The notes beneath the pieces were generated by a model. It was given only the letters and a program-made list of their open reading frames with translations. It did no database searches and was not told where the DNA came from. Source: Candidatus Rokuibacteriota bacterium (GTDB lineage Bacteria; Methylomirabilota; Methylomirabilia; Rokubacteriales; CSP1-6). From it: DNA of 64,000 nt. Position numbers and translations under genes: made by a program. The DNA is taken from the NCBI GenBank assembly GCA_030647435.1, contig JAUSJX010000029.1, forward strand, positions 1 through 64,000, read 5' to 3'. Each line of letters starts with the position of its first letter. Within the stretch, counting starts at the first letter, position 1. Below are positions 19,754 through 29,518 of the stretch, piece after piece.

Positions 19754-20152
19754 CTACCCCATGGTCTGGACGCGGTCCGGCGCGATCGTGAAGATCACGC
19801 GCACCTCGCCCGGCTTGCGGTACGGGTAGCGGTCCTGGCCCAGGTACTTCTTCGAGAGCGCGTCGATATGGGCGTCGGCGCCCGACTCGGTGACGGCGGC
19901 GACGCGGCCCCTGACCTGCACGTACCGGTAGGGGTTGTCGGGATCCATGATGGACAGCGCCACCGCCGGAGTGCGGCGGAGGTTCTTGTCCTTCAGGCGC
20001 CCCTTGGCGGTGTTGATGCGGAGACGGCTGCCGTCCCAGTCGAACCACACGGGCGTCACCTGAGGCGTGCCGTCGGCGTTGAGCGTCGCCAGGTTTGCGA
20101 AGGCCTTCTTCGTCGTGAGCAGGTCGCTGTATGCCTCGGGAATGGCGCTCAT
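19754..20152 (-). CDS. PPOX-class F420/FMN-dependent oxidoreductase
   Basis: A 132-residue split-barrel flavin/deazaflavin protein. LATLNADGTPQVTPVWFDWDG and the RYVQVRGRVAAV strand match the PPOX class F420-dependent group (Rv1155 type). These enzymes reduce small substrates with F420H2 or bind FMN. ATG 20152 overlaps the TGA of the AhpD-like gene (ATGA). Confidence 0.88.
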   Translation of the reverse strand: MSAIPEAYSDLLTTKKAFANLATLNADGTPQVTPVWFDWDGSRLRINTAKGRLKDKNLRRTPAVALSIMDPDNPYRYVQVRGRVAAVTESGADAHIDALSKKYLGQDRYPYRKPGEVRVIFTIAPDRVQTMG

Positions 20153-20499
20153 TGTGCGGATCCTTTCTTGACTTCGTCCATGACGGCGAAAGCGTGGCGA
20201 ACGGACTTCATGCTGATCGTGCCGCCCATGATGGCGCCGATGTCGAGCGTCTCTGCGATCTCCGCGTCCGTCGCGCCCAGGTGGAGGACCTCCTCCACGC
20301 GGTGCTCGATTCAGTCGAAACAGTTCTGGACGACCGCGACGCTGAGCGCCGTCAGCTCCTTGTGCTTCTTGCTGAGGGCCCCGTCGGCGAACACCCGCCT
20401 GCCGACCTCGCCCACGACCGCGGGCACCTTCATCGGGCTCTTGGCGATGAGGCCGTTGAGCCGTTTGCGCTCCTGGTTCTTCTCGTGGAGGTGGATCAT
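20149..20499 (-). CDS. AhpD-like/carboxymuconolactone decarboxylase-family selenoprotein
   Basis: A 116-residue protein if TGA at 20313-20311 is read as selenocysteine (residue 63). Upstream: LSKKHKELTALSVAVVQNC; downstream in frame: IEHRVEEVLHLGATDAEI, exactly the AhpD pattern, so TGA replaces the second Cys of the redox CxxC (Cys60-Phe-Asp-Sec63), with His66 nearby. The frame runs on to a TGA that overlaps the next gene's ATG. A hairpin starts 12 bases after the TGA. ATG 20499 follows AAGGAGG and overlaps the preceding stop. AhpD-like proteins are thiol-based peroxide or redox enzymes. Confidence 0.8.
20281..20298 (-). promoter_or_regulatory. Bacterial SECIS-like hairpin
   Basis: On the minus strand GTGGAGG-AGGT-CCTCCAC: a perfect 7-bp stem with a G-containing tetraloop at bases 23-26 counted from the U of UGA. 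Position and the GGU in the apical loop agree with known bacterial SECIS elements read by SelB. Confidence 0.65.
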
Positions 20500-21014
20500 G
20501 CGCCCTCCTTGGGCGGTACGTCGGTGAGCATCCGGGCGCGGGCCTCGGCCAGCCCGCGCAGGGCCAGCAGCAGCCGCACCATGCACTGCTGGACCAGGGC
20601 CGCGTCCTGCGCCGTGGGATCGGCCATCCACGCTCTCGCCCACTCGCGGCTCCCGGCCTTCAAGCCGAGCGTGGGCGACAGCTGCTCGAGGCGGAGCAGC
20701 AGGTCGTCCGCCGGCAGCCCTGCCGCCCGCAGCCGGGCGACCACGGCGCCGCGCACCGCGGCGTTCCACATGCCCGTCAGCGCCTCGAGCAGCGCCGCGT
20801 AGCAGGTCGCGTCGGGCTTCTGCTTGAGGTGCTCGACCACAACCGCCAGCAGCGGATGGACGGCGGGCTCGCCCTCGTCGTCCACGCCGGCGAGCCCGGC
20901 CAGCATCGGGTCCCGTCCGAGCTCGGGCAATTGCTCGAGGAGGTCGAGGAGCTCGGCCACGGGGACGGGAGGCAGCCCTGCAAGCCGGTCGAGGAGCGGC
21001 GCGTCGCCTGCCAC
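20496..21014 (-). CDS. Hypothetical helical protein
   Basis: About 172 residues, Leu- and Ala-rich, all helical, soluble, not recognised. Segments such as LLDLLEQLPELGRDPMLAG and LVQQCMVRLLLALRGLAEAR suggest a helical repeat or bundle. GTG 21014 lies just beyond the MFS stop; its own stop overlaps the ATG of the AhpD-like selenoprotein, so translation is coupled. Confidence 0.7.
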   Translation of the reverse strand: MAGDAPLLDRLAGLPPVPVAELLDLLEQLPELGRDPMLAGLAGVDDEGEPAVHPLLAVVVEHLKQKPDATCYAALLEALTGMWNAAVRGAVVARLRAAGLPADDLLLRLEQLSPTLGLKAGSREWARAWMADPTAQDAALVQQCMVRLLLALRGLAEARARMLTDVPPKEGA

Positions 21015-21015
21015 G

Positions 21016-22563
21016 TCAGGACCCCGAGGGCGCCGCGGGCTCCTGCGCGACGGCCAGGTCACGCGCCTGTCCCGCCGGCACGAGGAAAGCCGAGGCAAGC
21101 GCCGCCACCGCGACGACGAGCCCCACCACGAAGACGCTGCCCACGGCGTGCGCCATCGCGGGCCGCATCTGGCCGAGGACGTCGGCGCCCAGGCCCGCGC
21201 GCGTCACCGGGTTGACGATCAGGTCGGGGTGGGCGACGACCTCGCGCAGCCTATCTTGTAAACCCGCCGGCGCCGCCGCGAGCAGCGCGGAGAGCTCCTG
21301 GTGGAGACGCTGGGCCATGACCGAGCCCATCACCGCCACGCCGACGGCGCCGCCGATGGTGCGGAAGAAGCCCGTGACCGACGTCGCGGAGCCGAGCAGC
21401 GAGCGCGGGACGGCACTCTGGACCGCGATCAGCATCGGCACGAAGACGAGCCCCATGCCCACCCCGGCCAGGATCATGTCGCGCACCGCGGCGCCCCGCG
21501 TCAGCGACTCGTTCCAGCCCGCCAGCAGGACAAAGGCCAGCGTCAGGAAGAGCATGCCCGCCACCACCACCGAGCGATAGCCGACGCGCAGCACGAGACG
21601 CGCGCCCAGGATGGAGCAGGCGACCCAACCGATCACGAACGGCATGAGCACGAACCCCGCCTGCGTCGCGCTGCTGCCGGTCACGGCCTGGAGAAAGAGC
21701 GGCACGAAGGTGATGGCGCCGAACATGGCCATGCCCGACAGGAAGCCCGTCGCCGCCGCCGCCCGGACCATCGGGTTCGCGAAGAGCCCGAGCGGCACCA
21801 CGGGCTCGACGGCCTGCCGTTCGATCATCACGAATAAGACCAACAGCAGGGCCGAGAGCCCGAGCAGCGCCAGCACCTCGGGTCTCCACCACGAGGCGCC
21901 GCGCCCGGCCTCGACAAGTCCGATCAGGAGCGCCGAGATCGCCGCCGCGAAGACCGCCGTGCCGGCATAGTCGAAGGCCGCCGTGCGCCGCGCAGTCCGC
22001 TCGCCGGCCAGCCCCCACCTGATGGCGGCCATCGCGAGGAATCCGAATGGCAGGTTGATGTAGAAGACCGCGCGCCACGAGACCGCGTCGGTCAGGAATC
22101 CGCCGATGAGCGGGCCCACCAGCGAGGCCACGCCCCAGACACCCGAGAAGTACCCCTGCATCTTGGCGCGGCGCTCGAGCCCGTAGAGGTCGGCGATGAT
22201 GGTCATGCCGATCGTGATGAGGGACCCCGCGCCGAGCCCCTGGATGGCGCGGAAGACGATGAGCTGGGTCATGCTCTGGGACAGGCCGGACAGCGCCGAG
22301 CCGATGAGGAAGAGGCTCAGGCCCGTGAGGTAGACGCGGCGGCGTCCGAGCTGGTCGGCGAGCCGGCCCCAGAGCGGCATGGTCACCGTCGAAGCCAGGA
22401 GGAAGCCCGAGAATACCCAGGAATAGATCTGGATGCCGCCCAGGGTCGCGATGACCGTGGGCATGGCCGTGGCCACGACCGTGGACTCCATGGCCGCGAG
22501 GAAGACCGATCCCATGACGCCCGCCAGCACCAGCCGACGCCGCAGCTCCGCGTGCTCGGTCAT
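21016..22563 (-). CDS. MFS drug-efflux transporter, DHA2 (EmrB/QacA) type
   Basis: A 515-residue membrane protein with about 14 helices. GRLADQLGRRRVY is the loop 2-3 MFS motif, and GVWGVASLVGPLIGGFLTD is motif C of drug/proton antiporters. It should export drugs or metabolites by proton exchange. ATG 22563 overlaps the DUF971 stop (TGATG); an in-frame extension further upstream is a shadow of that gene. Confidence 0.92.
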   Translation of the reverse strand: MTEHAELRRRLVLAGVMGSVFLAAMESTVVATAMPTVIATLGGIQIYSWVFSGFLLASTVTMPLWGRLADQLGRRRVYLTGLSLFLIGSALSGLSQSMTQLIVFRAIQGLGAGSLITIGMTIIADLYGLERRAKMQGYFSGVWGVASLVGPLIGGFLTDAVSWRAVFYINLPFGFLAMAAIRWGLAGERTARRTAAFDYAGTAVFAAAISALLIGLVEAGRGASWWRPEVLALLGLSALLLVLFVMIERQAVEPVVPLGLFANPMVRAAAATGFLSGMAMFGAITFVPLFLQAVTGSSATQAGFVLMPFVIGWVACSILGARLVLRVGYRSVVVAGMLFLTLAFVLLAGWNESLTRGAAVRDMILAGVGMGLVFVPMLIAVQSAVPRSLLGSATSVTGFFRTIGGAVGVAVMGSVMAQRLHQELSALLAAAPAGLQDRLREVVAHPDLIVNPVTRAGLGADVLGQMRPAMAHAVGSVFVVGLVVAVAALASAFLVPAGQARDLAVAQEPAAPSGS

Positions 22564-27694: not shown

Positions 27695-29518
27695 TCAGGC
27701 CTTGAGGTGGAAGGGAACGTCCACCACCGCGATGCCCGGCCGGAAGAGCAGCGCGCCCTTGACCAGAAGCGCCGTCTGGTTGTGGAGCGCGTGCTGCCAC
27801 CAGTGGAGCGGCACGAACTCGGGGATGACGATGGTGATGACCCCGTGCGGCGCCTGGCTCTGTATGCGGTCCATGTACTCGAAGAGCGGCCCCAGCACCG
27901 ACCGGTAGGGTGACGACAACACCACCAGCGGCACCCCGCAGCCCCCTTTGGCCCAACGCTCCTCGAGCCGAAGCGTGCGGGCCGGGTCAAGCTCGACGTA
28001 GACCGCCCTGGGGTTCGAGGACAGCGACTGTGCGAAGCGGAGCGCCCGCACCACGCCCATGTGGAGATCGCCCACCAGCACGAGCACCGTGTTGGTCATC
28101 GGCGGCTCGTCGGACAGGTGTTCGAGCGAGAGCTGTCCGGCGACGTCTACATAGTGGCGGCGGATGGACACGAACATCATGACGAGGAGCGGGATCAGCA
28201 GCACGACCACCCAGGCGCCGTGGGTGAACTTGGTGGCGGTGATGACCATCACCACGAGCCCCGTCGTGGCGGCGCCCACCGCGTTGACCCACCAGCGCCA
28301 CCGCCATCCCGGCTCGCGCCGGACGAGCCACCGTCGGACCATGCTCGCCTGCGAGAGCGTGAAGGAGAGGAACACGCCCACCGCGTACAGCGGGATCAGC
28401 GCGTGCGTGCTCCCGCCAAAGAGCACGAGCAGGAGCGCCGCCGTGCCGCCCAGGATGAGGATGCCGTTGGAGAACACGAGCCGGTCGCCCCGCGTGCCGA
28501 ACTGGCGCGGCAGGAAACCATCCCGGGCGAGGAAGAAGGACAGCCGCGGAAAGTCGGCGAAGGCGGTGTTGGCCGCCAGCACCAGGATGAGCATGGTCGA
28601 GCCCTGCAGCGCGTAGTAGAAGAGGCCCTCGCCGAAGATCTGGCGCGCCAGCTGGGAGACGATGGTCTCCTCCGGGAGCGGCGTCAAGCCGTAGTGCCGC
28701 GTGAGGAACGTGATGCCCATGAAGAGCGAAATCAGGATGATGCCGAGCCACGCCAGCACGACGCGCGCGTTCTTCGCCTCGGGCGGCTTGAAGGCCGGCA
28801 CCCCGTCCGAGACCGCCTCGACCCCGGTGAGCGCCGCGCAGCCCGAAGCGAAGGCGCGGAGGACCAGGAAGAGCGTCAGCTCCTGCGCTCCCGGGATGAC
28901 CGGGCGCACCGCCTGAGCCGGCGCGTCCAAGCCGAAGGTCCAGCGGACGAGCCCGTAGACGATCAGGACGCAGAATCCGGCGATGAACAGGTAGGTCGGG
29001 AGCGCGAAGAGCTTGCCGGACTCGCGGATGCCCCTGAGGTTGGCGAGCGTGACGAGTGCGACGAACGCCACGCCGATGACGATGCGGTACGGGTAGAGCC
29101 ACGGCACGGCGGACGTCAGCGCCGCGACCCCCGCCGCCACGCTGACGGCCACGGTCAGCACGTAGTCGATCAGGAGCGCCCCGCCCGAGATGAGCCCCGG
29201 AAGCGTGCCGAGGTTGTCCTTGGTGACGATGTAGGAGCCGCCGCCCTGCGGGTAGGCGAGGATGGTCTGCCGGTACGAGCTGACGACCACCGCGATCAAG
29301 ACGGCGATGGCGACGCCGATGGGGATCGAGTAGTGGAGGGCGACCGTGCCGGCCAGGACGAGGATGAGCAGGATCTCCTCGGTCGCGTACGCGACGGAAG
29401 AGAGCGCATCCGAGGAGAAGACTGCGAGCGCAGAGGTCTTGGAGAGCCGCTCGTGGCGGGCCTGCGCCGTGGCGAGGGGACTCCCGACCAGAAGTTTCTT
29501 GAGGGAGTTGAGGTTCAC
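27695..29518 (-). CDS. KimA-type potassium permease, copy 2
   Basis: A 607-residue APC-superfamily permease resembling KimA/YdaO: SSDALSSVAYATEEIL, SYRQTILAYPQGGGSYIVTKDNLG and LIDYVLTVAVSVAAG are typical. About 12 membrane helices, then a soluble C-terminal domain (from about 440). In Firmicutes such proteins import K+ and respond to c-di-AMP; no such riboswitch is visible here. Start GTG 29518 mirrors copy 1. The two copies are close paralogues in tandem, 36 bases apart. Confidence 0.85.
   Translation of the reverse strand: MNLNSLKKLLVGSPLATAQARHERLSKTSALAVFSSDALSSVAYATEEILLILVLAGTVALHYSIPIGVAIAVLIAVVVSSYRQTILAYPQGGGSYIVTKDNLGTLPGLISGGALLIDYVLTVAVSVAAGVAALTSAVPWLYPYRIVIGVAFVALVTLANLRGIRESGKLFALPTYLFIAGFCVLIVYGLVRWTFGLDAPAQAVRPVIPGAQELTLFLVLRAFASGCAALTGVEAVSDGVPAFKPPEAKNARVVLAWLGIILISLFMGITFLTRHYGLTPLPEETIVSQLARQIFGEGLFYYALQGSTMLILVLAANTAFADFPRLSFFLARDGFLPRQFGTRGDRLVFSNGILILGGTAALLLVLFGGSTHALIPLYAVGVFLSFTLSQASMVRRWLVRREPGWRWRWWVNAVGAATTGLVVMVITATKFTHGAWVVVLLIPLLVMMFVSIRRHYVDVAGQLSLEHLSDEPPMTNTVLVLVGDLHMGVVRALRFAQSLSSNPRAVYVELDPARTLRLEERWAKGGCGVPLVVLSSPYRSVLGPLFEYMDRIQSQAPHGVITIVIPEFVPLHWWQHALHNQTALLVKGALLFRPGIAVVDVPFHLKA

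Follow-up and report, generated by a model that had tools for sequence, protein, structure and literature searches.

A probable CMD/AhpD-fold selenoprotein with a CxxU active site, encoded through an in-frame UGA in Methylomirabilota

Introduction

Selenoproteins of the CMD/AhpD-like type, in which selenocysteine (Sec) forms part of a CxxU motif, were described in Sargasso Sea data in 2005 (PMC1088965) and in GOS data in 2008 (PMC2398784), and a CMD domain-containing selenoprotein, AhpD-like 2 (PF02627, CxxU), is catalogued in a 2026 review (PMC13188914). The rules given there for a bacterial SECIS element call for a stem of 4–16 bp, a loop of 3–9 nt with a G in the first two loop positions, a distance of 16–37 nt from the UGA, and a minimum free energy (MFE) of at most −7.5 (PMC13188914). 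The review also cites a MAG from the Methylomirabilota for which 63 selenoproteins were predicted (PMC13188914).

This report concerns a gene in a 64,000-nucleotide stretch of a Candidatus Rokuibacteriota contig, hereafter the window. A preliminary description, made from the sequence, had likened the gene to CxxU AhpD-like selenoproteins known from metagenomes, and the three sources above bear this out; because such proteins have already been reported and listed, the gene is not new in kind. Our reading, to which we give a probability of about 0.96, is that it encodes a thiol-selenol oxidoreductase of the CMD/AhpD fold with a CxxU active site, in which Sec63 is inserted under the direction of SelB and a SECIS element. 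Its interest lies in being a clean, conserved selenoprotein gene, cut short by standard annotation, in an uncultivated phylum of soil and groundwater.

Gene layout and reading frame

The features of the locus, with the evidence for each in brackets, are as follows.

20496..21098, minus strand: upstream gene for a 200-aa protein without a family match (conserved neighbour)
20504..20510, minus strand: ribosome-binding site AAGGAGG (seen in the sequence)
20149..20499, minus strand: AhpD/CMD-like selenoprotein gene, CxxU, 116 aa (Pfam CMD, orthologues, pN/pS)
20311..20313, minus strand: in-frame TGA at codon 63, decoded as selenocysteine where CxxC has its second Cys (orthologues, solved Cys homologues)
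20281..20298, minus strand: bacterial SECIS hairpin with a stem of 7 bp and an AGGU loop (folding, published rules, pair counts, background)
19754..20152, minus strand: downstream gene for a PPOX-class oxidoreductase, F420-type (TIGR03618; 123.8 bits, above cut-off; conserved neighbour)

The selenoprotein gene starts at ATG 20499–20497, within an ATGA (20499–20496) that it shares with the stop of the upstream gene, and its terminal TGA (20151–20149) overlaps the ATG of the PPOX gene (20152–20150). The frame proposed earlier, from ATG 20499 through TGA 20313–20311 to a TGA overlapping the next ATG, is thus correct base for base. The active-site motif of the read-through product is QNCFDU, in which the TGA takes precisely the place of the second CxxC cysteine; the preliminary description had made this same assignment, which is upheld by a CMD match that spans the TGA and by solved homologues with Cys at the site (CDDC, CPGC, or CDGC).

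Coding potential and distribution of the gene

The read-through product matches the Pfam CMD family (PF02627) across the TGA with 51.7 bits (E = 9.2e-14; cut-off 23). When every TGA in the window was scanned for codon usage on both sides, TGA 20313–20311 ranked first, scoring +16.5 upstream and +14.7 downstream. Two other TGAs, at 27697 and 12438 on the minus strand, also passed the scan; these look like a gene end followed by an in-frame start, and have no convincing selenocysteine context. All 30 orthologues compared are free of frameshifts and remain in frame through the downstream half, and over 435 pairs the median pN/pS was 0.29 downstream of the TGA (45 codons) vs. 0.31 upstream (40 codons). 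Purifying selection downstream of the TGA is therefore equal to that upstream.

Codon-by-codon comparison placed a TGA at the position of codon 63 in each of 30 relatives' genomes and each of 33 GTDB loci, with Cys in none; the two sets probably overlap, and some of these 63 loci may represent the same organism twice. A search of 95 Methylomirabilota genomes found a match in 46, of which 44 carried the full-length gene including the TGA, one a broken copy (G019), and one a distant relative with Cys at the Sec site (CEGC; G049). GTDB matches fell within Rokubacteria, NC10, and other Methylomirabilota only. Plasmid records held only homologues below 60% identity. Since the GTDB scan looked for short conserved peptides and so would overlook distant relatives, the subfamily is described here as confined to Methylomirabilota in these searches, with Sec predicted from the sequence in every member found.

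The SECIS hairpin

The hairpin GTGGAGG-AGGT-CCTCCAC begins twelve bases after the TGA, which places its loop 19 nt after the UGA. Folding of the 36 nt that follow the UGA gave an MFE of −17.9 kcal/mol, the hairpin by itself one of −11.3, and the element at 20298–20281 agrees with all of the published SECIS rules (7 bp, AGGU, 19 nt, MFE). A hairpin resembling a bacterial SECIS had been proposed at this distance from the TGA, and the proposal holds in its exact position, its agreement with the rules, and the conservation of its pairing. All stem positions pair in each of 27 distinct orthologue sequences (100%); five of the pairs are invariant, pair 2 is U-A or U-G, and pair 3, the one that changes on both sides, is C-G, G-C, or U-A. 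The covariation of the stem is real but narrow. It is nevertheless telling at pair 3, because the change on the 5′ side is synonymous (Val GTC/GTG/GTT) while that on the 3′ side alters the amino acid (Asp/His/Asn).

Rule-abiding hairpins of at least this stability follow about 4.5% of the window's 1457 TGAs. By itself the hairpin therefore gives only moderate evidence, and it is the conservation across all orthologues, with the double-sided changes, that makes it strong. Hairpins also lie 17–21 nt after the Sec codon of selD and of four further CMD genes with CxxU in this genome. The one in the CxxU CMD gene L035 is weaker than the rule requires.

Selenocysteine machinery and other TGA-bearing genes

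The machinery for Sec insertion, proposed earlier as a check on the reading, is complete in this genome (G000). The genes for tRNA-Sec (UCA anticodon, 71.3 bits), selA, and selB are clustered on contig C56, and selD, which has an in-frame TGA of its own in CAGUASK (L018), lies elsewhere, on contig C98. tRNA-Sec was found in 51 of 60 relatives, this genome counted, and in 28 of the 33 among them that carry the TGA gene. Two of the five carriers without tRNA-Sec have selA and three have a Sec-type selD, so that missing contigs are the likely reason for its absence. The latter three (G002, G025, G035), one of which is rated 100% complete, count against the Sec reading in that they have the TGA gene with neither tRNA-Sec nor selA found, although a Sec-type selD is present in each. 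An in-frame TGA is present in selD of these three genomes and of G003; a second selD match has no TGA in G002 and has one in G003.

One TGA was present in six of the 17 CMD matches of the genome (G000). The five TGA-bearing CMD/AhpD-like matches other than the present gene are L027, L030, L032, L035, and L036, and in the four whose sequences were read the motifs are CRYU, CPFU, CDYU, and CEHU, each followed by a hairpin. Among AhpC-TSA (peroxiredoxin/thioredoxin-like) matches in the genome (L128–L142 and others), 18 of 33 contained one in-frame TGA, and in all eight that were read the TGA occupied the active-site position (e.g., TPGU, WUPHC). One further TGA-bearing peroxiredoxin-like gene (WGNIU; L145, G000:C29:103781–104149) is on the window's contig, outside the window. 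The sequences of the AhpC-TSA matches point to a very large redox selenoproteome in this genome. Taken with the present gene, the many TGA-bearing peroxiredoxin-like genes point to a redox system that would be unusually dependent on selenium in these bacteria.

Alternative readings of the TGA

A sequencing or assembly error, or a nonsense mutation in a pseudogene, might be suspected behind the TGA in view of the fragmented source assembly (176 contigs), yet the same codon is TGA in 63 of the 63 loci checked (sets that may share organisms), and purifying selection acts on the downstream half, which has no frameshifts. A base error at 20313–20311 is very unlikely, since the TGA recurs at the corresponding codon in dozens of relatives that were assembled separately, and we regard error or gene decay as scarcely credible. 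Nor is there much to recommend a true stop, with a 62-residue product and the remainder untranslated or forming a separate gene. A standard gene caller would indeed end the ORF at the codon-63 TGA, a truncation that the preliminary description foresaw; however, the Pfam domain extends across the TGA, the sequences on either side of it share the same codon usage and selection, and the alignment reveals no conserved start codon belonging to the second half. Such a stop strikes us as extremely improbable.

Decoding of UGA as Cys or Trp, whether by a suppressor tRNA or through an altered genetic code, deserves slightly more weight and is still very improbable. Cys is the residue at this site in homologues, and tRNAs that insert Cys at UGA have been described in certain bacteria. 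Against this, the UCA tRNA of this genome is a typical tRNA-Sec (71.3 bits) within a selA-selB cluster, a conserved SECIS hairpin would be needless for plain decoding, and UGA terminates many genes here, the selenoprotein gene among them. Sec coding is strongly supported by these sequence comparisons, and UGA codon 63 is almost certainly decoded as selenocysteine at the active site.

Protein fold and proposed chemistry

The AlphaFold2 model of the protein is all-helical with a mean pLDDT of 84.5 (65–73 over the first 40 residues), and its best PDB matches by Foldseek are lpg0406 and TM1620. The modeled CMD fold agrees with the Pfam assignment. Cys60 and Sec63 are positioned at the start of helix 61–73 in the model; Glu48 precedes Cys60 by 12 residues, and His66 follows Sec63 by three (Sec+3).

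In the mechanism that we propose, SelB and Sec-tRNA(UCA), guided by the SECIS 12 nt downstream, would insert selenocysteine at UGA codon 63, creating a CxxU active site at the helix start with Glu48 and His66 nearby. By analogy with the AhpD family, from which chemistry, substrate, and electron partner are all inferred, Sec63 would most likely attack either a peroxide or a disulfide partner (a peroxiredoxin, for instance), with Cys60 resolving the intermediate and a cellular reductant reducing the Se-S bond. A peroxidase role should be read as an inference, because the nearest solved relatives are of the CMD type and the His lies at Sec+3, not at +4.

Genomic neighborhood

The genes are arranged in the order MFS efflux, 200-aa protein, AhpD-U, PPOX (TIGR03618), ABC-F, and HNH, and this cluster is kept across most Rokubacteria loci, the three most distant excepted (L099, L101, L102). 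The upstream 200-aa protein had no match in Pfam or NCBIfam, and an Rfam scan of the 64-kb window returned no match at gathering scores. PPOX proteins of the TIGR03618 class may use F420, a cofactor that this organism probably makes, since its genome has cofD. An unlikely extension of these observations is that a Methylomirabilota-specific, all-Sec AhpD subfamily, translationally coupled to an F420-type PPOX, forms an F420-linked selenol redox system; if this is so, electrons would reach a selenoprotein by a new route.

Comparison with known systems

The likeness to AhpD that was first noted stands as regards the CMD/AhpD fold and the CxxU motif; the nearest solved relatives, though, are TM1620 and lpg0406, and not Mycobacterium tuberculosis AhpD. 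That enzyme likewise has a CxxC at a helix start, and its Glu118 stands 12 residues ahead of the first Cys, Cys130, the spacing of Glu48 and Cys60 here, but it is a weak structural match (Foldseek TM ~0.42–0.44, E > 1), its His lies at +4 vs. +3 here, and the place of His132 is taken by Asp62. Three members of its five-residue proton relay (Glu118, Cys130, His132, Cys133, His137) are matched here, by Glu48, Cys60, and Sec63. Because the relay is incomplete, the protein is AhpD-like and not AhpD proper.

Several NCBIfam models, namely the GSU3128 family, TIGR04169, and ArsM/AhpD selenoprotein, describe related AhpD-type domains, some of them in known selenoproteins, yet they score only 27.9, 39.5, and 31.7 bits against cut-offs of 110, 120, and 510. 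No model in NCBIfam covers the subfamily, and misannotation will therefore continue until one is made.

The best matches in both sequence and fold are TM1620 (1vke, 1p8c) and lpg0406 (5dik), with 27–33% identity and TM scores of 0.64–0.70. The CxxC of these proteins aligns with the CxxU, so that they have Cys where the gene described here has Sec. With the catalogued CxxU CMD/AhpD-like 2 selenoproteins, compared by description, the gene shares its Pfam family, Sec in place of the second Cys, and a SECIS downstream, whereas the members found here come from Methylomirabilota only and adjoin an F420-type PPOX gene.
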